DNA from: an uncultured Chlorobiaceae bacterium
GTDB lineage: Bacteria; Bacteroidota; Chlorobiia; Chlorobiales; Chlorobiaceae
Length of the DNA: 41,927 bases
Assembly (NCBI GenBank): GCA_903824295.1
Contig: CAIJWE010000079.1
Span: 1 to 41,927 of the forward strand
Reading direction: 5' to 3'
Below, piece by piece: positions 2,048-20,473 of the stretch (position 1 is the stretch's first letter; each line of letters opens with the position of its first letter). Both the position numbers and the translations under genes were made by a program. Below the pieces are notes generated by a model. That model made no database searches. It saw only the letters and a program-made list of their open reading frames with translations, and had not been told where the DNA came from.

Positions 2048-3466
2048 ATGGTTACGAAACAGACAACAAACAGGGAACTGAAAGCTTTTGCTTTTGCGCT
2101 CATGCTGCTCTGCTTTGGGTCACCGCGAATAGTCGATGCGAAGTCGGTAACGGTGAGTGAAGCGGTTACCCAGGCACTCAATACCAACCCGGAAATCAAG
2201 GCAAGGTTTCATGCTTTCCGGGATGTCTATGAGGAGCAGCATGTAGCCTATGGTGGCTATTTGCCAAAGATTAATGCAAGTGCCGGTATCGGGCATCATT
2301 GGCTTCAATCGGAAAGCAGTGGTGAAAAACATTACTGGGGCCAGGGTGTACGCCTTGAGCTTTCCCAGATGCTTTTTGATGGATTCTACACCAAAAGCCA
2401 GGTTTGCCGTCTGAAATTTTCGGGACAGGCGCGATATTTTGAGTTTATGGATTCGATGGAAACGGTTGGTCTCGAAAGTTTCAGGGCCTATGTTGATGTG
2501 TTGCGCTATCGTGAAATGCTCAATCTTTCGAAGAGAAATTACGAGTACCATAAGGAGATTTACGCTCTGATCAGCAGCCGTGTTCGTGCCGGAGTTGCAG
2601 CAGGGGTGGATATGGAACAGATTGCGGCCCGTCTTGCGCTGGCACAGTCGAACTACCTTATTGAATTGAGCAACCAGCATGATGTGAGTGCCCGTTACCA
2701 GCGCTATGTAGGAGAGTTGCCTGAAAAAAATCTTGCTCCGGTGGTGTTGCCTGAAAAGGGTATACCGGCGACGGCAATTGAAGCGCTGAAGGAGGCTTAT
2801 CAGCACAATTCCGGATTTCTTGCCACCCTTTCTGATATCCGTGCAGCAAATTATGCGGTTGACGTCCAGAAATCGAAGTTCTATCCGCGTCTTGATTTCA
2901 AGGCATGGCATGACCGGTCTTGGAATCTGGATGGTATTGATGGCCGGCGGGATGAGAGTACGGCTGAGGTTGCCTTGACCTATAATATTCTCAATGGGGG
3001 ATCGGACAGGGCGGCGGTGCATCAGTACCGTGAAAAAATGTATCGTGCGATTGACTTGAAAGACAAGTCGGCGATTGAGTTGCGCCAGACCATATCCATA
3101 GCGCATAATGAGAAGCTTTTGATAGCCGAGCAGTTGAAGTATTTTGACCGCCACTACAAGAGTATGGAGCGGGTAAGAGAGTCCTATCACCAGCAGTTCA
3201 CCATTGGAAAACGGACGTTGCTTGATTTGCTCGATACGGAAAATGAATATTATCAGGCACGTCGTGCTTTTTATAACGGTTTCTTTGACCTGACGATTGC
3301 GAAGGCGAGGACGTTGGCGGCGATGGGTCAATTGCTGACGACGATGGGTGTGGTGCGCGGAGAGATGCCGAGCCTGCGGGATATTAATGTTCCAATGCCG
3401 CATCCAACGGAACGGGATTTGCCGCCATTGGTAGAGCCTGATCGTGAGACTCCTGATTTTTTTTGA
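2048..3466 (+). CDS. TolC-family type I secretion outer membrane protein
   Basis: A 472-residue outer-membrane channel protein of the TolC/AggA type, forming the exit duct of a type I secretion system. The reading frame is open back to 1925, but that would overlap the adhesin and place 41 unlikely residues in front. ATG 2048 instead begins directly before a good signal peptide (hydrophobic FAFALMLLCFG, probable cleavage after VDA). The mature part starts with VSEAVTQALNTNPEIKAR, the usual first helix of outer-membrane efflux proteins. It has the two-fold OEP layout, with a conserved second-half motif near QQFTIGKRTLLDLLDTENEYYQAR. Length is normal for the family. It lies 67 bp after the adhesin and 63 bp before the prolyl isomerase, in the order adhesin-TolC-PPIase-ABC-HlyD. 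No clear Shine-Dalgarno sequence is visible. Confidence 0.9.
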   Translation: MVTKQTTNRELKAFAFALMLLCFGSPRIVDAKSVTVSEAVTQALNTNPEIKARFHAFRDVYEEQHVAYGGYLPKINASAGIGHHWLQSESSGEKHYWGQGVRLELSQMLFDGFYTKSQVCRLKFSGQARYFEFMDSMETVGLESFRAYVDVLRYREMLNLSKRNYEYHKEIYALISSRVRAGVAAGVDMEQIAARLALAQSNYLIELSNQHDVSARYQRYVGELPEKNLAPVVLPEKGIPATAIEALKEAYQHNSGFLATLSDIRAANYAVDVQKSKFYPRLDFKAWHDRSWNLDGIDGRRDESTAEVALTYNILNGGSDRAAVHQYREKMYRAIDLKDKSAIELRQTISIAHNEKLLIAEQLKYFDRHYKSMERVRESYHQQFTIGKRTLLDLLDTENEYYQARRAFYNGFFDLTIAKARTLAAMGQLLTTMGVVRGEMPSLRDINVPMPHPTERDLPPLVEPDRETPDFF

Positions 3467-3529: not shown

Positions 3530-4243
3530 ATGTCTGTAGTTCTGACTGTAGGGAAGAGGGAGTTTGAAGGTGATGATCTGTTGGCGCTGCTTTCAGGACA
3601 TAATGTGTTGCCGCAACTGATGGAGGCTATTGTTGTTGACCGCTCGTTGCGTTCTCTTGGGTGCAGTGCCGCAGCGATTGCGGACTATTATGGTGCTGAG
3701 GTGGCGGCTGATGCGGATTTTCTGCAGAAAAAGAGGGCTCAATTGCGGCTTGAAGGGACGAGGGAGGAAGATCTTGATTTTTTTATCAGTCGTCCCGTTC
3801 TGCTTCAGCTTTTTAAGGAGCAGCGATTTGTGCCGCTGGTCGGGAGTGCTTTTCTGAAATTGAAGGCAGGCTTTGACAGTGTGGTTTTTTCCATGCTGCG
3901 CAACAAAAACCATGAATTGATCAGGGAGCTCTTTTTTCGTATTGAATCGGGAGAGGAGAGTTTTGATTCACTTGCTGCGCGTTATGCAGAGGGACGGGAG
4001 GCTGCGAGTGGTGGTCGCCTTGGCCCGATGGAGATGCAGCAGTTGCATCCTGCGTTGGCCGGATTTTTGTCGACGGCTCAAACGGGGGTGGTCAATCCGC
4101 CGGTGGTTATTGACGGTTTTGGAGTCATTACTTTGTTGCATGAAAAAAGAGCGGCAAGGCTTGATGATGCAATGAAACAGCATCTTGTTGATCAGCTCTT
4201 CCGCGAGTGGGTGAAGGGTGAGGTTCATGCATTTTTTTACTGA
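3530..4243 (+). CDS. Parvulin-like peptidylprolyl isomerase associated with the secretion locus
   Basis: A 237-residue protein whose C-terminal half (about residues 120-215) looks like a PpiC/SurA-type rotamase domain: ESFDSLAARYAEGREAASGG, then RLGPMEMQQLHPALAGF and a closing VIDGFGVITLLHEKRAARL. The N-terminal half is helical, as in SurA-like chaperones. There is no signal peptide or membrane segment, so it should be cytosolic, unlike SurA or PpiD. Placed between the TolC gene and the ABC exporter gene, it may keep the adhesin or the exporter domains in an export-competent fold; this is inference from context. Catalytic activity cannot be judged from sequence alone. ATG 3530 is chosen because it gives full length and follows TolC without overlap. 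Confidence 0.78.
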   Translation: MSVVLTVGKREFEGDDLLALLSGHNVLPQLMEAIVVDRSLRSLGCSAAAIADYYGAEVAADADFLQKKRAQLRLEGTREEDLDFFISRPVLLQLFKEQRFVPLVGSAFLKLKAGFDSVVFSMLRNKNHELIRELFFRIESGEESFDSLAARYAEGREAASGGRLGPMEMQQLHPALAGFLSTAQTGVVNPPVVIDGFGVITLLHEKRAARLDDAMKQHLVDQLFREWVKGEVHAFFY

Positions 4244-4305: not shown

Positions 4306-7300
4306 ATGTCGAATACCGTCGATCCTGCTCGTGCCTCTCTTTGCCGCGTTATTGAGGGGATTCCCCTCTTTTCTGCCTTGCCGGCGGATAAAATCGGCAT
4401 GCTCGCTGATCTCTGTTCAATGGGAGTGTATACTATAGGGAAGCCGATTATCAGCAAGGGGATTCTGCCGGAATCGCTTTATCTGATCAGTTCGGGGGTG
4501 GTGCGATCGCTCTATCAGGAGGGTGGCACCGGGGCCGTGCAGACGTTGAGGCTTCTCGGGCCTGGAGAGCTGTTCGGCTGGGTTAGCCTGATGCGCCGTC
4601 AGCCAACGGAGATTGTTACGGCTTCTGAAGAGACTACCTGTCTTCAGATTCCTCTCTTGTCTCTGAGCAAGGTAATCAATGAGTTTCCGTTTCTTTATGA
4701 TCTGCTGCAGGGGAGAAGCGACCCTTCGGAAATTGCGGTCTTGCTCGAAAGCATCTACAGCAATGATCCGAAGCGAGGTGTGCGCATGGTCGAATCTGGT
4801 TTTTTGGGAATCAGGGAGCTTTCGCAGCATCTTTTTTCGTCGGCGGTGGTTGTTGATACCGGTTTCAGCAGGTCGATTCCCCCGAACAAGCTTCAGTGGT
4901 TTGTCAGCCGCAGCGATGATCCGGCATACCTGCCAGGCAGTGAGTATCGGCCTGCTTCGGCTGAAATACCAGGCTCACATGCATTTCGTCTTGTAGGGCT
5001 TGATTTGTCGTGCATCAAAACTGAGCCCTCTCAACCGCCGGAGAGGAGCCTGAAGGTTCCTCCACAGGAAGTTGGGTCGGTTGCTGTTACTGCTGTGCCG
5101 GAGCGGGAGAGGGGAGTGCATGAACGCGATCGGCAGAGGAGGGAGTTCAATTGTCAAACAGAAGAGGAGACGGGAAGCAGCGCGTCCAAAGGATTTCCTT
5201 TTTTCAGGGGGCGGGGTGCTGTTGAGGAGACGACGGCCTGTTTTCTTATGTTCGGCAAGTATATGAATGTTCCGGTTAAAAAAGATCTGATTCAGAGCAT
5301 TATAGGAAACCAGTATACCCGAAACGGTCAGATATCGCTGCAGGATTGCGGAGGTGTCGGGGTGGTGCTTGGTCTGAAAGCTCAGGTGGTGAGTTTTGGG
5401 CCTGAGGCTCTTCCGCGGCTGAAACTTCCGGCCCTTATCGCCTGGGACAAGAGTTTTGCCGTGCTTTACCGGGCTTCATCGAAGTCCGTGATGGTTGCAG
5501 TCCCCTCTTCATCCGGTATCAAAGAGCTTGGTGTCAAAGAGTTCTGGGAGAAATGGGATCATCCCGGGGAGGCGCTTGTGCTTGATGCGAGGGAGGATAC
5601 TCCTGAAAAAAAGTTTGGCTTTGACTGGTTTGCGCCCTCCATCAAAAAGTATCGTGCGGTGCTTGCCGAGGTGATGATCGCCTCATTTTTTACCCAGATC
5701 ATGACTCTGGTCAATCCACTGCTTTTCATGGTCATTATTGACCAGGTCATTGTCAAGAACAGTTACTCAACACTGCATGTGCTTGGTACCTTCATGCTCG
5801 CTATTGCCATTTTGCAGGCGGTGCTGAACAGCTTGAGAACCTATCTTTTTGTTGATACTACCAACCGCATTGATGTTGCTCTCGGGGCGGAGGTGATTGA
5901 TCATCTTTTGCGTTTGCCGTTGCGTTTTTTTGAGAAGAGGCCGGTGGGTGAGCTGAGTTCACGAATTGGTGAGCTTGAGCATATCCGTCAATTTTTAACG
6001 GGTACGGCTCTTGGTGTTGTGCTTGACGCGGTTTTTTCATTTGTCTATGTTGTTGTTTTGTTTGCATTCAGTTGGAAGCTTGCGGTGATGGCTCTCTCTA
6101 TTGTTCCTGTGATCGGGCTGATAACGTTTCTGTTATCGCCCGTGATCAGAAAGCAGTTGCGGGAAAAAGCTGTACGTCACAGTATGACGAATGCCTATCT
6201 GATTGAGGTGCTTTCAGGTATTCAGACGGTCAAGTCGCAGAATATTGAGCTGCGGGCGCGATGGAACTGGCAGGAGAAGTATGCCGCTTATGTGAAGGAG
6301 GGGTTCAAACCGGTTGTCTCTGGTACCATTGCCAATTCCGCGAACTCTTTTCTCAGTCAGGCTTCCGGGCTTATTGTGATCTGGGCTGGCGCTGCTCTTG
6401 TGCTGAGCAATGAGTTGACCCTTGGGCAGCTTATTGCATTTCGTATGATTGCCGGTTATATAACGAGTCCTGTGATGCGTCTTGCCCAACTCTGGCAGAA
6501 TTTTCAGGAAACCGGTATGTCGCTTGAGCGGCTTGCCGATATTGTCGATACCCCGCAGGAGGGTGGCAAGGATCAGTTGTCGCAGATTCCGCTTCCGCTC
6601 ATCAAGGGTGAAATTTCATGTGAAAATATCTCGTTCCGTTTCAGGGAGCGGGCGCCCATGGTGCTGAAAAATGTGTCGGTGAGCATACCTGCCGGTTCTT
6701 TTGTGGGAGTTGTGGGAGAGAGCGGATCGGGCAAGAGTACCTTTGCGAAACTTATCCAGAGGCTTTACCCGCTTGAAGAGGGGAGGATTTTTATTGATCA
6801 TTACGATATTGGCAAGGTTGAACTCAATTCGCTCAGAAGCCAGATTGGTATTGTGCCGCAGGATCCTATGCTTTTTAATGTTTCGGTCAAGGATAATATT
6901 GGCCTTACCAATCCTGAGGCGACGGATGCTGATATTATCAATGCGGCTCAAATAGCCCAGGCTCATGATTTTATTATGGCGTTGCCAACTGGGTACAATA
7001 CGTCGGTTGGCGAAAAGGGCTCGTCACTCTCAGGCGGTCAGCGGCAGCGGATTGCCATTGCGAGAACAATTCTGCAGAATCCGGGGCTTATCATTCTTGA
7101 TGAGGCGACCAGCGCGCTTGATGCGGATACGGAAAGCCGGTTAACGGCACAAATGATTACGGCATTCAAAGGCAAGACGGTCTTGTTTATTACGCACAGG
7201 CTTAATTCGGTGAAAGGGGCTTCCATGATACTTTGTTTCCATGACGGCTGCATTGATGAAATTGGTACCCATGATGATCTTATGGAGCGAAAAGGACGCT

Positions 7301-7362
7301 ATTATTCGCTCTTTCAGAAGCAGTCGTTTTCCATTCCGGTTATGGAGGGAGGCCTGTCATGA
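4306..7362 (+). CDS. Type I secretion ABC exporter with N-terminal cNMP-binding-like domain and degenerate C39-like domain
   Basis: A 1018-residue inner-membrane exporter fusing permease and ATPase. Residues ~15-130 form a cyclic-nucleotide-binding-like beta barrel (IPLFSALPADKI, GPGELFGWVSLM). Residues ~150-300 are a linker with a basic/Glu-rich stretch. Residues ~304-430 are a C39-peptidase-like fold. About 450-740 is the six-helix ABC membrane domain, and ~768-1010 the nucleotide-binding domain. Walker A is GESGSGKST (804-812, Lys810), the signature LSGGQ is at 908-912, Walker B ends in Asp932-Glu933, and the H-loop is His964, so the ATPase should be active. In the C39-like domain the catalytic Cys site reads ETTAC (Thr for Cys), the His site reads KSF (Ser for His) and the Asp site reads VP, so it cannot cleave a leader and probably only docks substrate, as in HlyB. 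The stop overlaps the HlyD start (ATGA). Confidence 0.92.
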   Translation: MSNTVDPARASLCRVIEGIPLFSALPADKIGMLADLCSMGVYTIGKPIISKGILPESLYLISSGVVRSLYQEGGTGAVQTLRLLGPGELFGWVSLMRRQPTEIVTASEETTCLQIPLLSLSKVINEFPFLYDLLQGRSDPSEIAVLLESIYSNDPKRGVRMVESGFLGIRELSQHLFSSAVVVDTGFSRSIPPNKLQWFVSRSDDPAYLPGSEYRPASAEIPGSHAFRLVGLDLSCIKTEPSQPPERSLKVPPQEVGSVAVTAVPERERGVHERDRQRREFNCQTEEETGSSASKGFPFFRGRGAVEETTACFLMFGKYMNVPVKKDLIQSIIGNQYTRNGQISLQDCGGVGVVLGLKAQVVSFGPEALPRLKLPALIAWDKSFAVLYRASSKSVMVAVPSSSGIKELGVKEFWEKWDHPGEALVLDAREDTPEKKFGFDWFAPSIKKYRAVLAEVMIASFFTQIMTLVNPLLFMVIIDQVIVKNSYSTLHVLGTFMLAIAILQAVLNSLRTYLFVDTTNRIDVALGAEVIDHLLRLPLRFFEKRPVGELSSRIGELEHIRQFLTGTALGVVLDAVFSFVYVVVLFAFSWKLAVMALSIVPVIGLITFLLSPVIRKQLREKAVRHSMTNAYLIEVLSGIQTVKSQNIELRARWNWQEKYAAYVKEGFKPVVSGTIANSANSFLSQASGLIVIWAGAALVLSNELTLGQLIAFRMIAGYITSPVMRLAQLWQNFQETGMSLERLADIVDTPQEGGKDQLSQIPLPLIKGEISCENISFRFRERAPMVLKNVSVSIPAGSFVGVVGESGSGKSTFAKLIQRLYPLEEGRIFIDHYDIGKVELNSLRSQIGIVPQDPMLFNVSVKDNIGLTNPEATDADIINAAQIAQAHDFIMALPTGYNTSVGEKGSSLSGGQRQRIAIARTILQNPGLIILDEATSALDADTESRLTAQMITAFKGKTVLFITHRLNSVKGASMILCFHDGCIDEIGTHDDLMERKGRYYSLFQKQSFSIPVMEGGLS

Positions 7363-8348
7363 AAAATCCATTTGCTGATGATTTGATTGGTCAGGGAGAG
7401 GTGTTCAGCCAGTCTCTGTTTGTGCCGAGGGCGATACTCTGGACTCTTGTGCTTGCTTTTTTTGGTTTTATTGTCTGGGCATCAGTTGCTGAAATAGATG
7501 TTTCGATTCCTGCGGCAGGAAAGCTTGAGCCGACTGGTGAGGTCAAGAAGGTGCAGGCGGCTATCGAGGGAGAGGTGAGTCTTTTGCGTGTTGAAGATGG
7601 GCAGCGGGTTAAAAAGGGAGAGGTGCTCCTTGAGATGGTCCCTGTTTTGTCGGTTGGTGAGGAGTCGAAACTCAAGTCGCTGGAGATCAATCTGGCCAAT
7701 GCACGCCAGCAGTATGCGACTGAGTCGGTACTGCTTGGAAAATTACGCTCTCTGCTCAGTACTGCTGCCGTTTCACAATTTGAGGTGGAACAGAAAAAAC
7801 TGGATGTGCTGAAGCTTCAGGCACAGATTGCTGACCTCTCGGAGCAGATTAACAAGCAGCGCTATATGACCGGTCAGGCCACAGGGTATGAGTCGATAAC
7901 GGCTCCGGTGAGCGGTACGGTGTTTGATCTTCAGGTAAAAAAGGGGACGATTGTCAGTTCCGGTCAGGTGATTCTTAAAGTTGTGCCTGATGATAATCTG
8001 ACAACCAAGGCTTTTATTTCAAATCAGGATATCGGTTTTGTTGTTGAGGGACTGCCGGTAGATGTGCGGCTTGATGCATTTCCTTCGGCCGAGTTTGGTG
8101 TTATCAAGGGGAAGGTGGTTCAGGTTGGTTCTGATGTGCTTGCGCCTGACGATATCATCAAATTCTATCATTTTCCGGTCAAGGTCGAGCTGGAACGCCA
8201 GTATCTGGAGGTTAATGGCCGAAAAATTTTTCTTCAGTCGGGTATGTCTGTGGGAATGAATATCAAGGTGAGGAAGCGCACCGTCATGAGTATTTTTACC
8301 GATCTCTTTACCCAGCAGGCCGATGCTATCAGCCATATCAGAAAATAG
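7359..8348 (+). CDS. HlyD-family membrane fusion protein (type I secretion adaptor)
   Basis: A 329-residue periplasmic adaptor that should link the upstream ABC exporter to the TolC-type channel. It has a short cytosolic N terminus, one membrane helix at about residues 25-45 (AILWTLVLAFFGFIVWASVA), the lipoyl/barrel-sandwich strand KVQAAIEGEVSLLRVEDGQ, a helical hairpin (~100-165), the second lipoyl half (ITAPVSGTVFDLQVKKGTIV) and a beta-barrel end. HlyD itself is about 478 residues, so the coiled-coil hairpin here is short. The ATG overlaps the exporter stop by four bases, implying translational coupling and a dedicated pair. The next gene starts 22 bases downstream, so the giant glycosyltransferase is probably on the same transcript. 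Confidence 0.92.
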   Translation: MKNPFADDLIGQGEVFSQSLFVPRAILWTLVLAFFGFIVWASVAEIDVSIPAAGKLEPTGEVKKVQAAIEGEVSLLRVEDGQRVKKGEVLLEMVPVLSVGEESKLKSLEINLANARQQYATESVLLGKLRSLLSTAAVSQFEVEQKKLDVLKLQAQIADLSEQINKQRYMTGQATGYESITAPVSGTVFDLQVKKGTIVSSGQVILKVVPDDNLTTKAFISNQDIGFVVEGLPVDVRLDAFPSAEFGVIKGKVVQVGSDVLAPDDIIKFYHFPVKVELERQYLEVNGRKIFLQSGMSVGMNIKVRKRTVMSIFTDLFTQQADAISHIRK

Positions 8349-8369: not shown

Positions 8370-11300
8370 ATGATGCATCGTAAAGCTACAATTCCGAAGC
8401 GCGGTGCGGCTGTTGTTGCATCTGAAGTGGCTATTCCGGGAGGGAGCGGACGTAACGAATCCAGTTTGCTGTCGGCGCTGGCTTTGCATCAACAGGGCCT
8501 GTTTGATGAAGCTGAAGCACTTTATCGAGAGATTTTACTCTCACAGCCCTCCCATTTTGATGCCTTGCAGCTTCTTGCCTCTGTGGAGGCTCAGAAAAAG
8601 AACTCCCTTGATGCCGTCGAGTTGTTTGATCGAGCGCTCAAAATTAATCCCGATCACCCCTTTATCCTCAATAATCGTGGCAATGCGTTGAAAGAGTTGA
8701 CGCGCTACGAAGAGGCTTTGGCGAGTTATGACAAAGCCATAGCTCTTTATCCGGATTATAGTGATGCTTACAATAATCGTGGTAATGTGTTACAGGCATT
8801 GAAGCGGTTCGAAGAGGCGATCGTGAGCTATGATCGGGCTCTTGCACTGCAGCCTGACTTTGCTGCAGCGCACAATAGTCGTGCGGATGTGTTGCTTGAA
8901 ATGAAGCGTTTTGGTGAGGCTTTGTCGGGTTATGACCAGGCGATAGCGCTTCAGTTGGATGATGCCGATACGTACCATAATCGTGGGAATGCGTTACAGG
9001 AGTTGAGGCGGTACAAAGATGCGTTGCTGAGTTATGAGCGGGCTCTTGTCATCGAGCCTGATTACCGTTTTTTGTTCGGAATGTGCCTGCATGTAAAAAT
9101 GAAGTGTTGTGACTGGGGATTTTTTGATGATCAGGTCAGTCAACTTGCCGAAAGAATAGGGCGTCACGAAAAAGCAGCGTCACCGTTTTCTGTGCTTGCC
9201 GTGTCTGATTCGCTCTCTTTGCAGAAAGAGGCGGCGATGATTTTTGTGCAGGATGAATTTTCTGAAAGTCAAGCTCTTCCGAAAATATTGAAGCGTGCCC
9301 GACGCGACAAGATTCGTATCGGTTATTACTCCGCTGACTTCCATGATCATGCAACGACCTATTTGATGGCCGGGCTGTTTGAAATGCATGATAGAGGGAA
9401 GTTTGAACTTTTTGCGTTTTCATTTGGAGCGGAGAGCAATGACACCATGAAAAAAAGGGTCGAGGCATCATTTGACCGTTTTTTTGATGTGCGATTTCAA
9501 TCAAATCGAGAGGTGGCGATCCTGTCGAGGGATTTGGAGATCGATATTGCCGTTGATCTCAAGGGTTTCACCGGGAATGCCCGAACCGGAATATTTGCCT
9601 TGCGGGCAGCACCGATACAGGTTAACTATCTTGGCTATCCCGGTACCATGGGTGCTGACTACATTGATTATCTTATTGCAGACCGGACACTGATACCGGA
9701 AAGCAGTCAGGCCGGTTACACCGAAAAAATAGCTTATCTCCCCGACAGTTATCAGGCGAATGACGCGATGCGCCGTATTGCAGAGAAGGTGTTCACCCGA
9801 AAAGAGTCGGGTTTGCCGGAAACAGGATTTGTTTTCTGTTGTTTCAACAATAATTATAAAATCACTCCGGCTACCTTTGACGGGTGGATGCGGATTCTCA
9901 AGCAGGTGCCGGAGAGTTATCTCTGGCTGCTTGGTGATTGTCCAGAGGTTGAGGATAATTTGCGACGTGAGGCGACTGAAAGGGGTGTTCAGGCTGATCG
10001 GCTGATTTTTGCACAGCGCATGCCTCTTGCTCGCCATCTTGCACGGCACCGCCTGGCTGATCTTTTTCTGGATACCCTGCCATGCAATGCCCATACAACG
10101 GCCAGTGACGCATTGTGGGCGGGATTGCCTCTGTTGACCTGCATGGGGGAGTCGTTTGCAAGCCGTGTTGCGGCAAGTTTGCTTAATGCCATTCAGTTGC
10201 CGGAGCTTATTACTGCAACTCAGGAAGAGTATGAGGCGCTGGCCGTTGAACTTGCCACGAAGCCACTACAGTTGCAGCATATCCGGCAAAAGCTGGAGCA
10301 GAACCGACTCACGGCACCCTTGTTTGATACGCAACGTTTTACCGGGCACCTCGAAGAGGCTTACCGGGTGATGTACGAGCGGTATCAGGCCGATTTGCCG
10401 CCTGCCCATCTTTTTATAGAACCATCACTTCGATCGGGCAAGAAAAAGATGAAGCAGGTGCCTGTAAAAAAACGCACTTCTTTGGGAGTGAGGTACGGCG
10501 ACAAGAGTGCCGATACAACTGAAGACGCGGTGCCGTCACAAGATGCGTATGCTTCGAAGCTGGAGTCGGCCCTGATGTTGCATCAACAGGGGCTGCTGGA
10601 TGAAGCTGAAGCGTTGTACCGGGAGATTTTGCTCTCACAGCCTTGCCACTTTGATGCGCTGCAGCTTCTGGCATCTGTTGCGGCGCAGAAAAAGAACTCC
10701 CTTGAAGCGGTTGATTTGTTTGACCGGGCGCTTCTCATCAATTTCGAGAATCCCTTTGTGCACAATAATCGTGGCAATGCGTTGAAGGAGTTGCAGCGCT
10801 ATGAGGAGGCATTGGCGAGTTATGAGCATGCCATAGCCGGTAAAGCTGATTATGCGGATGCGTTTTATAATCAGGGAGTGGCATTAACGGAGTTGAAACG
10901 CTTTGAAGAGGCCGTGGCCAGCTATGATCGGGCTATTCTGTTGAGGCCTGGTTATCCGGCAGCTTACTATAATCGAGGCAATGTGTTGAAGGAGTTGCAC
11001 CGCTGTGAAGAGGCGCTGGAGAGCTATGAGCGTGCCTTGGCCATAAGGCATGACTATGCGGAAGCCTGCTACAACCGTGGCGTCGCGTTACAGGAGCTGC
11101 AGCGCTGTGAAGAGGCGCTGGAGAGCTATGAGCGTGCTTTGGCCATAAGGCCTGACTATGCGGAAGCTTGCTGCAGCCGTGGCGTCGCGTTTCAGGAGCT
11201 GCAGCGCTATGAAGAGGCGCTGGAGAGCTATGAGCGTGCCTTGGCCATCAGGCCTGACTATGCGGAAGCGTTATTCTCTCAAGGTTTTTTATTCGTGGAG

Positions 11301-14300
11301 TTGCAGCGCTATGAAGAGGGGCTTGCGAGTTATGAGCGTGCCTTGGCCATAAGGCCGGACTACGCTGAAGCTTGCTGTAATTCCGGCTTTGTGTTACAGA
11401 AGCTTAAACGGAATGAAGAGGCCGCCTGGTGTTATGAGAGGGCCATCACACTCAAGCCTGACAATGCAGAGTTTCACGGCACTCTTGGTAATGTGTTGCA
11501 GAATCTGAGACGATATGAGGATGCGTTGGCAAGTTATGACAGGGCCCTGGCAATATGTCCTGAACAGGAAACGTTTTATGCAAATCGAGGTGTTGCCCTG
11601 GAGGCATTGAAGCGCTACGCGGAGGCGGTTTTAAGTTATGACCAGGCTCTTGCACGTAAGCCTGATTTTGCGCGTGCGCACTATAATCGCGCACTTTCAT
11701 TAACGCAACTAAAGCGATATGAAGAGGCGCTTGCAAATTTTGACAAGGCTTATGAACTCAGGCCTGACTATAACCTATTGTTTGGTCAACGTCTCTATTA
11801 TAGAATGAAAATTTGTGACTGGAGTGCTTTTTTTGATCACGGTTATCAACTTGTCGAAATAATAGAGCAACATGAAAAAGCAGTGTCACCGTTTTCTGTT
11901 CTTGCAGTAGCCGATTCGCTCTCTTTGCAGAAAGAGGCTGCGTTGACCTACGTGCAGGATCGATTTCATGGAATTACTCCGCTTCCGGCTATTACTAAGT
12001 ATGAGAGGCGTGAAAAAATCCGCATTGGCTATTTTTCTGCTGATTTTCATGATCATGCAACAACTCACCTGATGGCAGAGTTGTTTGAGGCGCATGACCG
12101 GTCTCGGTTTGAGCTTTTTGCCTTTTCGTTCGGGCCGGAGAGCAAGGACGAGATGAGAAAAAGGGTTGCTGCCTCCTTTGATCGTTTTCTGGATGTGCAA
12201 TCCCTGGCAGATCTGGAGGTGGCGATGCTCTCAAGGGATTTGGAGATCGATATTGCCGTTGACCTGAAAGGGTTCACAACAGACTCGCGTACCGGGATAT
12301 TTGCCTTGCGGGCAGCACCGATACAGGTTAACTATCTTGGCTATCCCGGTACCATGGGTGCAGAGTATATTGATTATCTTATTGCTGACCGGGTACTGAT
12401 ACCGGAAAGCAGTCGGCCGTATTACACTGAAAAAATAGTCTCTCTTCCGAACAGCTATCAGGTGAATGACACAAAGCGTCGCATAGCCGAGAAGATTTTT
12501 ACCAGAGAGGAGTGCGGCCTGCCGGGAAGTGGGTTTGTTTTCTGCTGTTTCAACAATAACTACAAAATTACCCCTGCCACCTTTGATGGATGGATGCGGA
12601 TGCTCAAAGCGGTGCCGGAGAGTCTGCTCTGGCTCTATGAGGATAATCCAAAAGCTGCGGATAATTTGCGACGGGAGGCGGCTGCCAGGGGTGTTGACGC
12701 TGAGAGGGTGATTTTCGCGAAGCGTCTGCTTCCTGCGGAACATCTCGCAAGGTATCGGCTGGCCGATTTGTTTCTGGATACCTTGCCGTGTAACGCTCAC
12801 ACGACGGCAAGTGATGCCTTGTGGGCCGGGTTGCCTGTGCTGACCTGCATGGGCGAAGCGTTTGCTGGCAGGGTGGCGGCGAGTCTGCTCCATGCCATCC
12901 AGTTACCTGAGCTGATTACCTCAACACAGGAGGAGTATGAGGCGCTTGCGATTAAACTTGCCACCCATCCGGAAGAGTTGGCTCAGATCCGTCGTAAGCT
13001 GGAGCGGAACCGGCTCACAACACCACTGTTTGATACGCAGCTCTTTACCGGCTACATTGAAGAGGCTTACAGAGCGATGTATGAGCGCTGTCGGGCTGAT
13101 TTACCGCCTGATCATCTCCATATCAAACCCTCTATCATTAATGCAAAGTTGAGGCCTATGAAGGATTTAGGTGTTCCTGCACCGGAAGATGCCCAATCTG
13201 TCGCTCCTTCTCAAACAGCAGAGAGTGATCATGCGGCCATGTTACAATCGGCATTGACCTTCCATCAACAAGGCCATTTTGATGAGGCCGAAGCGCTGTA
13301 CCGGGAGATCTTGCGCTTACAGCCCTGCCATTTTAATGCGCTGCAGCTTCTTGCAACAATTGCAGCACAAAAAAACAATTCAGCGGACGCTGTTGCGTTA
13401 TTTGATCGTGCGCTCAAAATCAATCCTGATCACGCAAGTTCACTGAATAATCGTGGCAATGCCTTGAAGGAGTTGAGGCGGTATGAAGAGGCTTTGTTGA
13501 GTTACGATAAGGCTCTTGCACGCAAGCCGGATTATGCCGAGGCTCACTGTAATCGTGCGAATACGTTAAAGGAGCTGAAACGCTACGAAGAGGCTGTGGC
13601 GAGTTATGATCTGGCGATAACCTTCATGCCTGACTATGCGGATAACTACTATAATCGTGGTATTGCATTACAGGAGCTGAGCCGCTATGAAGAGTCTGTC
13701 GCGAGTTATGAAAGGGCTATCGCGCGTAAACCTGATTATGCTGAGGCTTACTTTAACCAGGGTGCGGCGTTAAGGGAGCTGAAACGATATGAAGAGGCGC
13801 TGTTGTGTTACGATAAGCTTCTGGTCATACAGACTGATAACGCTGAGCTTTTTTCTCGTCGTGGTATCCTGTTCCTGGAGTTGATGCGTTATGAGGAGGC
13901 GTTAGTGAGCTGTGACCATGCTCTTGCACGTAAACCGGATTCTGTGAAGGCTTACTCAAATCGAGGTGTTGCGTTACAGGGATTGAAGCGCTATGAGGAG
14001 GCGTTGGTTTGTTATGATAAGGCGATTGCATTAAACCCGGACCATGAAAAGTCTTATTCAAATCGAGGGAACACTTTGATGGAGCTGAGACGACATGGGG
14101 AAGCGCTGGCGAGCTATGACCGGGCAATAGCACTCAACCCTCAGTGCGTGGAGCCTTACTCGAATCGTGGTGTTGCATTGCATGAGTTGAAGCGGTATGA
14201 AGATGCGGTATTGAGCTATGACAAGGCACTGGTTCTCAAAACTGATTATGCCGATGCCAACAGTAATCGGGGTAATACGTTATTCGCGTTAAAACGCTAT

Positions 14301-17300
14301 GAAGAGGCCATTGCCAGTTATCGCAGGGCTCTTGAACTCAAGCCTGATTATGATTATTTGTCGGGAATGTGTCTCTATTCCATGATGCATATCTGTGACT
14401 GGAGTGCTTTTGATGATCACCTTCATCAACTTGCCGAAAAGATAGAGCGTCACGAAAAAGCATCATTACCATTCCCTGTTCTTGCAATGGCAGATTCTCC
14501 CTCTTTGCAAAAAGAGGCCGCATTGATTTATGTGCAAAATACGTGTCCCGAAAGTCATGAGCTTCCTGAAATTTCCAGGCGCGCTCGTCGTAATAAAATC
14601 CGCATTGGGTATTATTCGGCTGACTTTCACAATCATCCAGTCTCTTATTTGACGGCCGAGTTGTTCGAACTGCACAATCGGGATTCATTTGAGGTTTTTG
14701 CCTTTTCATTCGGGCCTGATACTCGGGATGAAATGAGAAAAAGGGTTGAAGTTGCCTTTGACCGCTTTTTTGATGTCCGAAACCGCTCTGACCTGGATGT
14801 CGCAAAGCTTTCGAGAAGTCTTGAAATTGATATTGCCGTTGATCTGGGAGGCTTCACAACAGATTGCCGTACCGGTATCTTTGCCTTGCGTGCCGCACCG
14901 CTGCAGGTTAACTATTTGGGATACCCCGGGACAACAGGAGCTGAATATTTTGATTACCTCATTGCCGATGCAACGTTGATACCCGAAAGCAGTCGGCCGT
15001 ATTACACTGAAAAAATCGTCTCTCTTCCTTACAGCTTTATGGTAAATCATGCCAATCGTCGTATTGAAGAGAAGGTATTTACCCGCGAGGAGTGCGGCTT
15101 GCCGGAAAAAGGGTTTGTATTCTCTTGTTTCAACAATAACTATAAAATTACTCCAGCCACCTTTGCCTCCTGGATGCGGATTCTCAAGGAGGTCGCAGGT
15201 AGTGTTCTTTGGCTTAATGAGGCAAATCAGGGAGCCGTAAATAATTTACGACGGGAAGCTCTTCGATGGGGTATTGATGCGGAGAGAATTGTTTTTGCAA
15301 AGCGTACAGACTTTCCTGCATATATGGCAAGGCTTCGTTCGGCAGATCTGTTCCTCGATACGTTGCCCTATAATGCCCATGCTACGGCAAGTGATGCCTT
15401 GTGGGCCGGTTTGCCGGTGCTGACCTGCAAGGGGGAGTCATTTGCGGGCCGGGTGGCGGCAAGTTTGCTCAATGCCATTGGGTTACCTGAGCTGATTACC
15501 TCAACACAGGATGAGTATGAGGCGCTTGCGATTGATCTTGCCACTCATCCGGAATCGTTGGCGGAGATTCGCCGGAAGCTGGAGCGAAATCGACTCACAA
15601 CTCCACTGTTTGATACGCCGCTCTTTACCGGGCACATTGAAGATGCTTACCGGGAGATGTATGAGCGGTATCAGGCTGATTTGTCGCCGGATCATTTTTC
15701 TGTCAAGCCATCGTTATCTCGCGGCAGGAGTAAGTCGAAGCGCATGCCGTTGGGGGATTGCAGAGCGATGGTACCTGAGGATCAAGCATCAGTTGCTCTC
15801 TCTCAAGCGGTTATGGCTGATCATGAGGCTCTGTTGCAATCGGCATTGACCCTCCATCAACAAGGTCGTTTTGATGAAGCCGAAGCGTTGTACCGGGAGA
15901 TTTTGCGCTCGCAGCCGAGCCATTTTGATGCGTTACAGCTTTTGGCAACCATTGCAGCACAAAAACGGAATTTTTTTGAAGCTGTTGCGTTATTTGACCA
16001 GGCGCTTACCATCAATCCTGATCATCCGGGAGTGCTCAATAATTTTGGCAATGCGTTGAAGGAGTTGAAGCGGTATGAAGAGGCGTTATTGAGTTATGAC
16101 CGTTCTGTTGCGCTGAAGCCGGACTATGCAGAGGCGTATTCAAATCGTGGTGTTGTGTTAAAGGAGTTGATGCGCTTCGAAGAGTCTTTATTGAGTTATG
16201 ACACGGCTCTTGCATTGAAGCCGGATTATGCTGAGGCTTACTCCAATCGAGCTGTTGCGTTACAGAAGTTGATGCGTTATGAGGATGCGTTGTTGTGTTA
16301 TGACAAGGCTCTTGAACTTAAGGCGGATTATACGGAAGCATATTCAGGTCGTGGTGTTGTTTTAGAGGCTTTGAGGCGCTATGAAGAGGCTCTGTTGAGT
16401 TATGAACGGGCTATAGAGCTTCAGCCGGACTATGCAGAGGCGTTTTCAAATAGCGCGGTTGCGTTGCAGAAGTTGATGCGGTATGAGGAGGCTTTGTTGC
16501 GTTATGACAAGGCGATAAAACTGCAACCTGACGATGCGGATGCGTATGCAAATCGTGGTGTTGCCTTAGAGGCCTTGAGGCGCAACAAGGAGGCTTTATT
16601 GAGTTATGACAACGCTCTTGCACTTAAACCTGATTTTGCGCGTGCGCACTATAATCGAGGCCTTGCCTTAACGAAACTAAAGCGATACGAAGAGGCGCTC
16701 GCAAGTTATGACAAGGCTCTTGAGCTCAAGCCGGATTATGATTTTTTGTTTGGAATATCTCTGCATACGCAAATGCAGATGTGTGCGTGGATCACTTTTT
16801 GGGATGATGTTCATCAACTTGCCGGAAAAATAGAGCGGCACGAAAAAGCAGCACCACCCTTTTCTGTTCTTGCAATGGCTGATTCTCCCTCTTTGCAAAA
16901 AGAGGCAGCATTGATTTATGTGCAGGAGACATTTCCTCGAAGTCACGCGCTCCCGGATATACCAAAGCGTGCCCGGCATGAAAAAATCCGCGTTGGCTAT
17001 TTCTCTGCTGAATTTCATGATCATGCAACGACTCGCCTGATGGCAGAGCTGTTTGAAGCGCATGACCGATCGCGGTTTGAGCTCTATGCCTTTTCATTCG
17101 GGCCGGAGAACCACGACGAGATGAGAAAAAGGGTTGCGGCCTCTTTTGATCGTTTTCTTGATGTCCGATCTCTTTCAGACCGGGATGTGGCGATTCTGTC
17201 AAGGGATTTGGAGATCGATATTGCTCTTGACCTGAAGGGGTTCACGACGGATTCGCGCACCGGGATATTTGCCTTGCGTGCAGCACCGATACAGGTCAGC

Positions 17301-18902
17301 TATCTTGGTTATCCCGGCACCATGGGCGCCGAATATATTGATTATCTTATTGCTGATGAAACGTTGATACCTGAGGTCAGTCGGCGGCACTACACTGAAA
17401 AAATAGTCTCTCTCCCGCACAGCTATCAGGTGAACGACACCAAGCGTCGCATAGCCGAGAAGATTTTTACCAGGGAGGAGTGCGGCCTGCCGGCAAGTGG
17501 TTTTGTTTTCTGCTGTTTCAACAATAACTATAAAATCACTCCAACCACTTTTGACGGATGGATGCGGATTCTCAAAGCGGTGCCGGAGAGTGTACTCTGG
17601 CTCTATAAGGATAATCCCAAAGCTGCGGATAATTTGCGACGGGAGGCGGCTGCAAGGGGTGTTGACGCTGAACGGCTGATTTTTGCAGAGCATTTGCTGC
17701 TTCCCGAGCATCTTGCAAGGCATCAGTTGGCTGATCTCTTTTTGGATACGTTCCCGTGCAATGCCCATACAACAGCCAGTGATGCCTTATGGGCGGGGTT
17801 GCCGGTGTTGACCTGCATGGGTGAATCATTTGCAAGCCGGGTGGCGGCAAGTCTGCTCAATGCCATGCAGTTACCGGAGCTCGTTACCGCTGCGCAGGAG
17901 GAGTATGAGGCGCTTGCGGTTGAACTTGCCACCGATCCGGAAAAGCTGGGGCGGATTGGCCGTAAGCTGGAGCGGAACCGATTATCAACACCGTTGTTTG
18001 ATACGCAACGTTTTACCCGGCATCTCGAAGAGGCTTACAGGCAGATGTATGAGCGATATCAGGCTGATTTGCCGCCCGATCATCTTGCGCAACTGGTACA
18101 TGGATCTGCAAAGGTTCCTGCAACCAATCAACAAACAGGATCAATGGAGGATATGCTTATGCAAATCTTTCAAAAAGTTAATCCTGATCGATTATCACAT
18201 TTTTTTAGATTGGTCAAACCCGTAACAACCAATTATCCCCTTATCAGAATTGGTGGTCAGTTTGATGGTGGATATTTGATTCCAGACGATTTGGATGGCA
18301 TTGAGGTATGTTTTTCTCCTGGGGTATCAACTGTTGCCGATTTCGAAGTTGATTTGGCAAACCGGGGAATTGAATGTTTTATGGCTGATTATTCAGTTGA
18401 TTCGCCGCCCATTCAGCATAAATTATTTCATTTTGAAAAAAAATATTTGGGACCAAGTGAAAACTCAATGTATATGACCCTCGAAAATTGGGTGAAAAAA
18501 AATGCAGCGAATCAAACGGATTGTATTCTGCAAATGGATATAGAGGGTGGTGAATATGGTGTGATTTTTGATACAAGTAGCGAAATTTTAAGGAAATTTC
18601 GAATTATGGTGATTGAGTTTCATGCCTTGTATGCCCTGATTGACAAATTCGGATGGGAACTCATTACCCTTTCCTTTACAAAAATATTGAAAGATTTTGC
18701 TCTTGTTCACATTCATCCCAACAACTGCTGCCCATCTATTATCTATGATAAATATGAAATTCCTCCCGTGCTGGAATTTACATTTTTGAGAAAAGACAGA
18801 ATAAAGAATACCGGGCCGTCATTAGTTTTTCCACATCCCTTGGACAGAAAAAATGTGCCGCAAAATGATGATTTTCCACTGCCGGATTGCTGGTATAAAT
18901 AA
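8370..18902 (+). CDS. Giant four-module TPR-GT41 (SPINDLY/OGT-like) glycosyltransferase with C-terminal FkbM-like methyltransferase
   Basis: A single uninterrupted 3510-codon ORF. I count four modules, each a TPR array of 34-residue units followed by a GT41 catalytic region: 6 TPRs (from residue ~29), 12 (~728), 11 (~1620) and 9 (~2485), 38 in all. Each module opens with a similar HQQG-FDEAEALYREIL segment. Each catalytic region keeps the His matching human OGT His498 (H327, H1229, H2089, H2885), the Lys matching OGT Lys842 in NNNYKITP (K497, K1399, K2259, K3055), a DALWAGLPLLT-like strand and the PLFDT-x-x-FT end. All four could therefore be active. Module 3 differs (HNHPVS, NAHATA). From residue ~3264 an AT-rich tail encodes an FkbM/Methyltransf_21-like domain (DIEGGEY). 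There is no signal peptide, so it is cytosolic. GT41 enzymes move GlcNAc or other sugars to Ser/Thr/Asn; the linked adhesin is the obvious candidate substrate (inference). ATG 8373 is an equally possible start. Confidence 0.93.
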   Translation: MMHRKATIPKRGAAVVASEVAIPGGSGRNESSLLSALALHQQGLFDEAEALYREILLSQPSHFDALQLLASVEAQKKNSLDAVELFDRALKINPDHPFILNNRGNALKELTRYEEALASYDKAIALYPDYSDAYNNRGNVLQALKRFEEAIVSYDRALALQPDFAAAHNSRADVLLEMKRFGEALSGYDQAIALQLDDADTYHNRGNALQELRRYKDALLSYERALVIEPDYRFLFGMCLHVKMKCCDWGFFDDQVSQLAERIGRHEKAASPFSVLAVSDSLSLQKEAAMIFVQDEFSESQALPKILKRARRDKIRIGYYSADFHDHATTYLMAGLFEMHDRGKFELFAFSFGAESNDTMKKRVEASFDRFFDVRFQSNREVAILSRDLEIDIAVDLKGFTGNARTGIFALRAAPIQVNYLGYPGTMGADYIDYLIADRTLIPESSQAGYTEKIAYLPDSYQANDAMRRIAEKVFTRKESGLPETGFVFCCFNNNYKITPATFDGWMRILKQVPESYLWLLGDCPEVEDNLRREATERGVQADRLIFAQRMPLARHLARHRLADLFLDTLPCNAHTTASDALWAGLPLLTCMGESFASRVAASLLNAIQLPELITATQEEYEALAVELATKPLQLQHIRQKLEQNRLTAPLFDTQRFTGHLEEAYRVMYERYQADLPPAHLFIEPSLRSGKKKMKQVPVKKRTSLGVRYGDKSADTTEDAVPSQDAYASKLESALMLHQQGLLDEAEALYREILLSQPCHFDALQLLASVAAQKKNSLEAVDLFDRALLINFENPFVHNNRGNALKELQRYEEALASYEHAIAGKADYADAFYNQGVALTELKRFEEAVASYDRAILLRPGYPAAYYNRGNVLKELHRCEEALESYERALAIRHDYAEACYNRGVALQELQRCEEALESYERALAIRPDYAEACCSRGVAFQELQRYEEALESYERALAIRPDYAEALFSQGFLFVELQRYEEGLASYERALAIRPDYAEACCNSGFVLQKLKRNEEAAWCYERAITLKPDNAEFHGTLGNVLQNLRRYEDALASYDRALAICPEQETFYANRGVALEALKRYAEAVLSYDQALARKPDFARAHYNRALSLTQLKRYEEALANFDKAYELRPDYNLLFGQRLYYRMKICDWSAFFDHGYQLVEIIEQHEKAVSPFSVLAVADSLSLQKEAALTYVQDRFHGITPLPAITKYERREKIRIGYFSADFHDHATTHLMAELFEAHDRSRFELFAFSFGPESKDEMRKRVAASFDRFLDVQSLADLEVAMLSRDLEIDIAVDLKGFTTDSRTGIFALRAAPIQVNYLGYPGTMGAEYIDYLIADRVLIPESSRPYYTEKIVSLPNSYQVNDTKRRIAEKIFTREECGLPGSGFVFCCFNNNYKITPATFDGWMRMLKAVPESLLWLYEDNPKAADNLRREAAARGVDAERVIFAKRLLPAEHLARYRLADLFLDTLPCNAHTTASDALWAGLPVLTCMGEAFAGRVAASLLHAIQLPELITSTQEEYEALAIKLATHPEELAQIRRKLERNRLTTPLFDTQLFTGYIEEAYRAMYERCRADLPPDHLHIKPSIINAKLRPMKDLGVPAPEDAQSVAPSQTAESDHAAMLQSALTFHQQGHFDEAEALYREILRLQPCHFNALQLLATIAAQKNNSADAVALFDRALKINPDHASSLNNRGNALKELRRYEEALLSYDKALARKPDYAEAHCNRANTLKELKRYEEAVASYDLAITFMPDYADNYYNRGIALQELSRYEESVASYERAIARKPDYAEAYFNQGAALRELKRYEEALLCYDKLLVIQTDNAELFSRRGILFLELMRYEEALVSCDHALARKPDSVKAYSNRGVALQGLKRYEEALVCYDKAIALNPDHEKSYSNRGNTLMELRRHGEALASYDRAIALNPQCVEPYSNRGVALHELKRYEDAVLSYDKALVLKTDYADANSNRGNTLFALKRYEEAIASYRRALELKPDYDYLSGMCLYSMMHICDWSAFDDHLHQLAEKIERHEKASLPFPVLAMADSPSLQKEAALIYVQNTCPESHELPEISRRARRNKIRIGYYSADFHNHPVSYLTAELFELHNRDSFEVFAFSFGPDTRDEMRKRVEVAFDRFFDVRNRSDLDVAKLSRSLEIDIAVDLGGFTTDCRTGIFALRAAPLQVNYLGYPGTTGAEYFDYLIADATLIPESSRPYYTEKIVSLPYSFMVNHANRRIEEKVFTREECGLPEKGFVFSCFNNNYKITPATFASWMRILKEVAGSVLWLNEANQGAVNNLRREALRWGIDAERIVFAKRTDFPAYMARLRSADLFLDTLPYNAHATASDALWAGLPVLTCKGESFAGRVAASLLNAIGLPELITSTQDEYEALAIDLATHPESLAEIRRKLERNRLTTPLFDTPLFTGHIEDAYREMYERYQADLSPDHFSVKPSLSRGRSKSKRMPLGDCRAMVPEDQASVALSQAVMADHEALLQSALTLHQQGRFDEAEALYREILRSQPSHFDALQLLATIAAQKRNFFEAVALFDQALTINPDHPGVLNNFGNALKELKRYEEALLSYDRSVALKPDYAEAYSNRGVVLKELMRFEESLLSYDTALALKPDYAEAYSNRAVALQKLMRYEDALLCYDKALELKADYTEAYSGRGVVLEALRRYEEALLSYERAIELQPDYAEAFSNSAVALQKLMRYEEALLRYDKAIKLQPDDADAYANRGVALEALRRNKEALLSYDNALALKPDFARAHYNRGLALTKLKRYEEALASYDKALELKPDYDFLFGISLHTQMQMCAWITFWDDVHQLAGKIERHEKAAPPFSVLAMADSPSLQKEAALIYVQETFPRSHALPDIPKRARHEKIRVGYFSAEFHDHATTRLMAELFEAHDRSRFELYAFSFGPENHDEMRKRVAASFDRFLDVRSLSDRDVAILSRDLEIDIALDLKGFTTDSRTGIFALRAAPIQVSYLGYPGTMGAEYIDYLIADETLIPEVSRRHYTEKIVSLPHSYQVNDTKRRIAEKIFTREECGLPASGFVFCCFNNNYKITPTTFDGWMRILKAVPESVLWLYKDNPKAADNLRREAAARGVDAERLIFAEHLLLPEHLARHQLADLFLDTFPCNAHTTASDALWAGLPVLTCMGESFASRVAASLLNAMQLPELVTAAQEEYEALAVELATDPEKLGRIGRKLERNRLSTPLFDTQRFTRHLEEAYRQMYERYQADLPPDHLAQLVHGSAKVPATNQQTGSMEDMLMQIFQKVNPDRLSHFFRLVKPVTTNYPLIRIGGQFDGGYLIPDDLDGIEVCFSPGVSTVADFEVDLANRGIECFMADYSVDSPPIQHKLFHFEKKYLGPSENSMYMTLENWVKKNAANQTDCILQMDIEGGEYGVIFDTSSEILRKFRIMVIEFHALYALIDKFGWELITLSFTKILKDFALVHIHPNNCCPSIIYDKYEIPPVLEFTFLRKDRIKNTGPSLVFPHPLDRKNVPQNDDFPLPDCWYK
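8454..18084 (+). repeat. Four tandem copies of a TPR-GT41 module inside one gene
   Basis: Four diverged direct repeats, starting near 8454, 10549, 13229 and 15826. Unit lengths differ (about 2.1, 2.7, 2.6 and 2.3 kb) mainly because TPR number differs (6, 12, 11, 9). The catalytic parts are strongly alike in DNA: bases 9591-9655 and 12297-12361 are identical over 65 nt, while the module 4 counterpart has several silent changes. Such long exact matches suggest recent duplication or ongoing gene conversion. Confidence 0.85.
10956..11363 (+). repeat. Near-identical 102-bp TPR-coding tandem repeats
   Basis: Four consecutive 34-codon units (starts 10956, 11058, 11160, 11262) in the second TPR array. 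Blocks such as GAAGAGGCGCTGGAGAGCTA recur at 11007, 11109 and 11211, exactly 102 bases apart, with only scattered changes between units. The fourth unit is more diverged. Because the period is a multiple of three, gain or loss of units would keep the frame. Confidence 0.85.
18146..18161 (+). promoter_or_regulatory. Possible internal ribosome binding site and start for the methyltransferase domain
   Basis: GGAGG at 18146-18150 is followed eight bases later by an in-frame ATG at 18159-18161 (residue 3264 of the giant protein), exactly at the junction between the fourth glycosyltransferase module and the AT-rich methyltransferase-like tail. Most genes here have weaker Shine-Dalgarno sequences. 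The tail could therefore once have been, or still be, translated as a separate ~247-residue protein. There is no stop codon in between. Confidence 0.4.
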
Positions 18903-19087: not shown

Positions 19088-20473
19088 GTGTTTAATTCTG
19101 CAAACCCATTTATGCAATTCTACTCACAACTTGGACAGGACAAATATCTTTTTGAGCGATTTTTCCTCGGAAAACGCGACGGGATTTTTGTCGATATCGG
19201 CGCTTACGATGGTAAAACTTTTTCGAACACGCTCTTTTTTGAGCAATCTCTCGGCTGGACTGGCCTTTGCATTGAGCCGCTGCCAAGCGAGTTTGAAAAG
19301 CTTAAGAGTTGTCGGACTGCGACCTGTGTCAACACTTGTGTCTCTGACTACAACGGCATCGGCGATATGCTTGATGTGGATGTGACCAATGACGCCAAAA
19401 TGTTGAGTGGTTTGATTGAGAACTACGATCCGCGTCACGTCGAGCGCATTGACCGGGTTTCGATTCAGAAAAGTGTCATCCGTGTTCCAGTGACGACCCT
19501 CAATGATTTGCTTCAGACCAACAAGTTTACCAAGGTCGATTATTGCTCTATTGATACCGAAGGGTCGGAGCTGAAGATTCTCATGAGTCTTGATTTCGAA
19601 CGGTATGATATTTCGCTCTTTACGATCGAGAACAACTACAAGGATGGTCGTATTGCAGAATTTATGGCACAGAAGGGATATGAACTGGTCGTTGAATTTC
19701 ATGGGTACGATCAGCTCTATAAAAAGAAATCGGTAACGATGCTCCCGCGTACGACGGTTATTTGCGCCGTTTGGCATGGCGATCCGAACCGCCTTGATCT
19801 GCTTGAGGGGCAGATGGCCAATCTCGACCAGCAGACACGGCCGATTGATCGTGTTTACGTTTTCGATGGAGGCGATAAGCCGCCGCAAAATCTTAAAGGC
19901 CATGTCGTCATAGCGCATGACAAATTGACCATATATCAAGCCTGGAACCTTGCGCTTTCGACGGTGCAAACTCCCTACGTCATGAATCTGAATCTTGACG
20001 ATCGATTGGCCCCGGACGCCGTTGAGGTAATGGAGAGTGCGCTTGATGCTGGAAACGATCTGGTTGGCGCTGACTGGAAGATTTGCTATACCCAGGAGGA
20101 AACCGACGCCGTTTCCCCTTCATTCCTTGCCAGTGAACTGCCATTTGTTCCTGCATGGCCACCAGTGGGAGAGCGCACCCGATTGGGCAGTGGAACAGGC
20201 TCGCGCGGTACTTTTGGTCCGGCTTGTATGTGGCGTACACATCTGCACCAGAGTCTGGCCAAGTATCCATATCAGTTTGGCGATGGCACGCTGATCCGCG
20301 TGATCGGTGACGCCGTTTGGTGGCGTTTGCTTGCACAGAACAAAAAGAAAATCCAACGAGTTGCGCGAATCATTGGCAACTACTACAGCCATCCACAAAA
20401 TCAGGCAGAGTTTCGCAACTCAGCGATAGAAGAAGAGGAGAGGTTGAAGCTGTCTGGAATACGCTTATTGTAA
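19088..20473 (+). CDS. FkbM-family methyltransferase fused to a GT2-like glycosyltransferase
   Basis: A 461-residue two-domain enzyme. Residues ~9-215 are an FkbM-type methyltransferase: QLGQDKYLFERFF, the SAM-binding GIFVDIGAYDGKTFSNT, ending in GLCIEPLP, and CSIDTEGSELKILMSLDF. Residues ~218-461 resemble a family 2 glycosyltransferase: TTVICAVWHGDPNRLD, VYVFDGGDKPPQ, a YQAWNLALS helix, then MNLNLDDRLAPDAVE with the DD motif that normally binds the metal-nucleotide sugar. There is no signal peptide. It probably adds and caps (by O-methylation) a sugar, completing the glycan begun by the upstream giant enzyme; this pathway is inference. The start shown is GTG 19088; ATG 19112 is a plausible alternative and loses no conserved residue. 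It follows the giant gene after 185 bp in the same direction. Confidence 0.85.
   Translation: MFNSANPFMQFYSQLGQDKYLFERFFLGKRDGIFVDIGAYDGKTFSNTLFFEQSLGWTGLCIEPLPSEFEKLKSCRTATCVNTCVSDYNGIGDMLDVDVTNDAKMLSGLIENYDPRHVERIDRVSIQKSVIRVPVTTLNDLLQTNKFTKVDYCSIDTEGSELKILMSLDFERYDISLFTIENNYKDGRIAEFMAQKGYELVVEFHGYDQLYKKKSVTMLPRTTVICAVWHGDPNRLDLLEGQMANLDQQTRPIDRVYVFDGGDKPPQNLKGHVVIAHDKLTIYQAWNLALSTVQTPYVMNLNLDDRLAPDAVEVMESALDAGNDLVGADWKICYTQEETDAVSPSFLASELPFVPAWPPVGERTRLGSGTGSRGTFGPACMWRTHLHQSLAKYPYQFGDGTLIRVIGDAVWWRLLAQNKKKIQRVARIIGNYYSHPQNQAEFRNSAIEEEERLKLSGIRLL

Follow-up and report, generated by a model that had tools for sequence, protein, structure and literature searches.

GT41 glycosyltransferases are usually described with a single catalytic head. 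What, then, is to be made of one open reading frame that encodes four such heads beside the exporter of a long secreted adhesin: is this layout real, and what might it do? We addressed this question in a 41,927-nucleotide stretch of DNA, here called the window, which is contig CAIJWE010000079.1 of an uncultured Chlorobiaceae bacterium (assembly GCA_903824295.1). The whole genome comprises 2.85 Mb on 131 contigs and is about 99.98% complete. Its closest named relatives place it among uncultured Chlorobiaceae MAGs, and it is probably a lake MAG itself.

Four TPR-GT41 modules in one reading frame

The open reading frame at positions 8370-18902 encodes 3510 residues, and the Pfam Glyco_transf_41 model matches this protein in eight stretches (1177.6 bits) that form four pairs of N-lobe and C-lobe; each lobe exceeds the model's cut-off in all four modules. 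The catalytic cores (residues 314-676, 1216-1578, 2076-2438 and 2872-3234) are each exactly 363 residues long and align without gaps at 70.5-85.1% pairwise identity. All four modules have equivalents of OGT H498 and K842, namely H327/K497, H1229/K1399, H2089/K2259 and H2885/K3055. Divided by 34 residues, the lengths of the TPR arrays in modules 1-4 come to 5.79, 11.79, 10.79 and 8.79, corresponding to 6, 12, 11 and 9 TPRs. The chain has four catalytic regions versus one in the usual GT41 architecture, a number that is not a strict criterion of the family. The parts of the protein, all on the forward strand, are:

8370-18902, +: polymodular TPR-GT41 glycosyltransferase, 3510 residues, from ATG to stop with no internal stop; start 21 nt past hlyD
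8475-9065, +: module 1 TPR array, about 6 TPRs
9309-10397, +: module 1 GT41 catalytic core (H327, K497)
10569-11771, +: module 2 TPR array, about 12 TPRs
12015-13103, +: module 2 GT41 catalytic core (H1229, K1399)
13251-14351, +: module 3 TPR array, about 11 TPRs
14595-15683, +: module 3 GT41 catalytic core (H2089, K2259), with Tyr and Ala at the positions of OGT C917 and T921
15843-16739, +: module 4 TPR array, about 9 TPRs
16983-18071, +: module 4 GT41 catalytic core (H2885, K3055)
18072-18899, +: FkbM-like methyltransferase tail, residues 3235-3510, with a DIEGGE motif (from Pfam and a homologue; AF2 model of low confidence)

A preliminary description of this DNA had proposed four TPR-GT41 pairs in one uninterrupted frame, each keeping the His498-like and Lys842-like residues of OGT, with 6, 12, 11 and 9 TPRs. 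The reading frame and the Pfam lobes confirm the pairs, all eight residues are present at the numbers it gave, and the array lengths bear out the repeat counts. The domain scan that it had proposed as a check finds the GT41 fold signature and the key residues in every module.

The gene closes a type I adhesin-export operon

The genes around this reading frame are:

1-1980, +: BapA/Bap/LapF-like type I secreted adhesin, C-terminal 659 residues, cut by the contig start (Big_9, Cadherin_5, T1SS-143 and tandem-95 repeats; matches weak but concordant)
1925-3466, +: TolC-family outer membrane channel (TIGR01844 at 254.8 bits, over the cut-off; OEP)
3530-4243, +: PpiC-type peptidyl-prolyl isomerase (Rotamase, E=2e-7)
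4306-7362, +: ABC transporter for type I secretion, with N-terminal cNMP-binding and C39-like domains (best match TIGR01846 HlyB at 715.7 bits, just under the cut-off)
7359-8348, +: HlyD-type membrane fusion protein
19088-20473, +: fusion of an FkbM methyltransferase with a GT2-like domain, 185 nt downstream of the GT41 reading frame

An ABC exporter, a HlyD adaptor and a TolC channel adjoin a repeat adhesin, the gene content expected where an adhesin leaves by type I secretion. The GT41 reading frame thus lies near a long adhesin and its exporter, in line with the long repetitive adhesin that the preliminary description had suggested as a substrate. The GT41 gene is the last of the operon, spaced as if co-transcribed. 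The order TolC-PpiC-ABC-HlyD-GT41 is found in the window and at three other loci (L027, L110 and L144), the HlyD-GT41 pair also at L109, and the junction from the hlyD stop to the GT41 start aligns with its 21-nt spacing in all five of these species. A scan for promoters and terminators gave nothing better than shuffled sequence. The FkbM-GT2 fusion is possibly a further glycan-processing enzyme, and conserved housekeeping genes lie 3' of it. The N-terminal cNMP-binding domain of the ABC transporter (4306-7362) and the presence of a PpiC gene within the operon are unusual for adhesin exporters.

One locus, L145, carries the same adhesin exporter and right flank, with the Lcl gene directly after the exporter and without a GT41 gene. 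There, the sequence that follows hlyD begins ATGACGC..GCAGAA and resembles the GT41 start of L109, so that the gene has probably been lost from L145, with a possible remnant of its start at 8700-8945. More distant exporters (L146-L150; about 71% identity in the ABC protein) lie at other loci and likewise lack a GT41 gene. Since all of these adhesin secretion systems do without it, GT41 is not needed for export.

Module order and selection in a second genome

The Chlorobiaceae MAG E-4_bin-114, represented by the contigs L027 and L164, has the same operon and right flank as the window. The exporter proteins of L027 are 92% (TolC), 90% (PpiC), 96% (ABC) and 98% (HlyD) identical to those of the window; L164, the 3' part of L027, carries Lcl, isochorismatase, LpxK and GARS at 79-95%. 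Modules 1, 2 and 3 of L027 are closest to modules 1, 2 and 3 of the window (87.3, 87.6 and 89.0% identity), a pairing recovered in the module tree with supports of 100/99, 99/93 and 100/100, and the linkers between modules correspond by position. Module 4 is split in this MAG, with its start on L027 and its end on L164, where the best match is window module 4 (83%). For the complete orthologous modules 1, 2 and 3, dN/dS is 0.132, 0.153 and 0.126, so these modules at least have been kept functional. The preliminary description had suggested that arrays of different length could confer different substrate reach or step-wise modification. The TPR match counts of arrays 1 and 2 differ between the window protein and this closest relative, and exact array length is therefore not strictly conserved.

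Within the reading frame, the four cores share 72-85% DNA identity, exact internal repeats reach at most 65 bp, and module 3 falls in another clade than modules 1, 2 and 4 (support 98/85). A recent tandem duplication is ruled out by this tree position together with within-ORF dS values of 0.55-1.42. Between the window and L027, the GT41 cores (0.42-0.51) show about twice the synonymous divergence of the ABC, HlyD and PpiC genes (0.17-0.25), and inter-module recombination is a possible cause.

A chimera fusing separate genes, which the preliminary description had named as a way in which it could fail, is very improbable and we reject it: the genome is a draft and contigs of relatives often end within the GT41 gene, but module order, linkers and flanks correspond in two diverged, independently assembled genomes, and the internal repeats are too diverged and too short (see above) to favour it. 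The 3510-residue layout is confirmed as real.

Each module resembles O-GlcNAc transferase

The AF2 model of module 1, run with 44 relatives, has a pLDDT of 94.0 and a pTM of 0.89 and joins an N-terminal TPR superhelix to a GT-B fold; the arrays of all modules are recognized by sequence. In Foldseek, the best PDB matches of module 1 are animal (human and fly) OGTs and XcOGT (TMt 0.90-0.93, r.m.s.d. 2.2-3.3), followed by SPINDLY, which is less similar to the modules than OGT and XcOGT by both structure and sequence. XcOGT is also the top sequence match of the module 3 core. Against the NGTferase model, module 1 scores 26.6 bits (cut-off 1000), and TPRs are present; both place it outside the HMW1C/NGT group. 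Every one of the 131 catalytic domains compared keeps the equivalents of H498, K842 and T922, and from their sequences the four modules of the window protein are apparently active.

XcOGT (XCC0866, PDB 2jlb/2vsy) shares with module 1 its fold (TMt about 0.91), the combination of TPRs with GT-B, the catalytic His and Lys and the lack of an intervening domain. Its chain, however, is a single module of 568 residues, whereas the window protein has four modules with longer TPR arrays, a tail and a place in an adhesin-export operon. Human and animal OGTs and plant SPINDLY, also of GT41, likewise show the TPR-GT41 order and the equivalents of H498 and K842, but have a single catalytic region, and the intervening domain of OGT is absent from the window modules.

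A proposed multi-headed glycosyltransferase for the adhesin

From these analyses we consider it reasonably probable that the protein is a multi-headed protein O-glycosyltransferase of the cytoplasm whose dedicated substrate is the type I-secreted adhesin encoded nearby, which the enzyme would decorate before export. Each TPR array would capture a stretch of unfolded adhesin, in the way that FlmG binds flagellin through its TPR domain, and each GT-B head would move a sugar from a nucleotide-sugar donor onto Ser or Thr. Four heads per chain could modify the many acceptor sites of a long repetitive adhesin quickly, before the adhesin leaves through the ABC-HlyD-TolC exporter. The tail, probably a methyltransferase in the window protein, may act on the sugar once it is in place.

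There are precedents for parts of this scheme. In FlmG of Caulobacter, a TPR domain at the N terminus binds flagellin and a GT domain forms the C-terminal part (PMC7591256). The modular pairing of a substrate-binding TPR domain with a GT, and the cytoplasmic modification of an exported protein, are what is proposed for the window protein as well; FlmG, however, is a single module of 596 residues with flagellins as its substrate. HMW1C, also of GT41, acts on an adhesin that is glycosylated in the cytoplasm before secretion (PMC3983070). HMW1C/NGT thus parallels the proposal in that a GT41 enzyme serves one secreted adhesin before export, and differs in its N-glycosylation, in an AAD domain in place of TPRs, in two-partner secretion and in its single module. 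The bacterial GT41 enzyme TtOGT showed no in vitro activity on protein substrates (PMC4683255), which counts against the proposed function. Ser+Thr enrichment of the adhesin as a sign of glycosylation was not found, with about 22% beside GT41 and about 21% without it (L145). Polymodular GT41 genes at loci lacking an adhesin, and adhesin exporters lacking GT41, likewise weigh against a dedicated role.

Possible non-equivalence of heads and exchange of tails

An alternative is that the heads are not equivalent but differ in their donors or in the step at which they act, and that the tail finishes a defined oligosaccharide on the substrate. Module 3 differs from modules 1, 2 and 4 at the positions of C917 (Cys to Tyr) and T921 (Thr to Ala); module 3 of L027 has the same Tyr and Ala, and the separate clade of module 3 points the same way, as does variation at H920, T921 and D925 among other family members in the 131 domains. 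But Tyr is the commonest state at the C917 position (89 of the 131) and XcOGT has it too, so a change of donor need not follow from it, and module 1 of L027 has Tyr where that of the window has Cys, so the difference is not fixed by module position. We therefore dropped a reading of the donor sugar from changes of this type, Tyr being the family norm.

Ordered action would also fit the chains of L168, L062 and L100, which mix TPR-GT41 with TPR-GT9-like modules, and the variety of the terminal enzymes. Across polymodular GT41 proteins the tails are FkbM-like, DUF5672, PS_pyruv_trans or unnamed, and at this very locus they vary by species: FkbM-like in the window, DUF5672 in L164 and an unnamed domain in L108 and L167. 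Recombination that swaps the terminal enzyme may be the simplest reading of these differences. In L108 (4790-5791) and L167 (1714-2715) the common C-terminal domain follows a remnant that resembles a truncated module start; this domain has no Pfam match, and in L167 no PHROG match either. We regard ordered action by non-equivalent heads as unlikely.

The methyltransferase tail of the preliminary description stands as likely, if weakly supported. The window tail falls just short of the Pfam FkbM cut-off (22.4 against 22.7 bits, E=1.5e-4), and its AF2 model has a pLDDT of 50, whereas L155, a standalone homologue encoded on contig C18 of this genome and 49% identical to the tail, passes that cut-off with 32.2 bits.

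Polymodular GT41 proteins are rare but recurrent

The preliminary description could be read as implying a one-off layout. A search for the architecture in other genomes does not support this: several Chlorobiaceae, Methylococcales and Nitrosomonadales have it, as does contig C80 of the window's own genome, nearly all examples coming from MAGs. The C80 protein (L106 9994-16527) has 2178 residues in three modules; its gene is flanked by that of a universal stress protein and by meaB/methylmalonyl-CoA mutase, with no adhesin nearby. Methylococcales MAGs and Crenothrix have 2-6 GT41 modules, some with TPR-GT9-like modules between them. Two Methylococcales proteins of about 4430-4450 residues (L074 2483-15781, with six GT41 modules, and L062 7280-20629, with TPR-GT9-like modules as well) end in a divergent GT41-like domain; a methyltransferase gene lies directly upstream of the L062 protein. 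A Nitrosomonadales MAG with 53 GT41 lobe matches in its genome encodes a protein of 4628 residues (L168 4862-18745) that combines four TPR-GT41 cores with TPR-GT9-like stretches and ends in a polysaccharide pyruvyl transferase tail. Among others, the proteins of L027+L164, L106, L074, L062 and L168 are like that of the window in having tandem TPR-GT41 in one frame; they differ in module number (2-6), tails and loci, and those of Methylococcales and Nitrosomonadales add GT9-like modules. In a draw of 121 genomes from the family of a Methylococcales relative, GT41 was present in 45, and long multi-match frames in only a handful. The polymodular layout is rare but recurrent.

Polymodular GT41 genes also lie away from any adhesin or type I secretion gene on C80, in L031 and in L168. 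These loci, and the existence of an adhesin operon without GT41, would suit a different substrate, be it some other surface protein or a carbohydrate, the operon position being incidental. Against this stand the hlyD junction conserved in five species and the match of the TPR-GT41 heads to protein-modifying OGTs, and we hold such a substrate to be doubtful.

Module trees show separate GT41 expansions, the arrays of Chlorobium and Methylococcales having arisen separately. Three single-module GT41 genes lie side by side at L044 (417-6786) and three likewise in L043, possibly the precursor state of fused arrays. Such neighbouring genes could be the raw material of a by-product, in which TPR-rich genes recombine, fused copies persist with little advantage and module number has no special function; the separate origins, the varying module numbers and the absence of the gene from L145 agree with this. 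We give it still less credence, because modules 1-3 keep the same order in two species, each under strong purifying selection, and the catalytic His and Lys are never lost among the 131 domains. Dedicated glycosylation of the adhesin remains our preferred reading of the window protein.

Implications

In keeping with the preliminary description, which knew of no enzyme with this layout, a literature search, with most subscription papers outside its reach, found no published description of tandem GT41 proteins. The single modules are ordinary GT41; what is new is how they are arranged, their conserved association with an adhesin exporter and the variability of the tails. The window protein seems to be one member of a class of multi-enzyme glycosylation proteins not described before. 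A bolder proposal, which we advance only tentatively and think improbable, is a distinct class of glycosylation megaenzymes in which TPR-GT41 modules, with or without TPR-GT9-like modules, would act on exported proteins in assembly-line fashion together with an exchangeable terminal enzyme, for example a methyltransferase, DUF5672 or a pyruvyl transferase; if true, such enzymes would resemble polyketide synthases in logic. With a conserved four-headed GT41 beside an adhesin exporter, it can be tested directly how TPR arrays choose long substrates, whether the heads cooperate and how bacteria may decorate giant adhesins before secretion. Its active-site variants in one chain and its species-varying tails provide a natural set of parts for studies of protein glycosylation.
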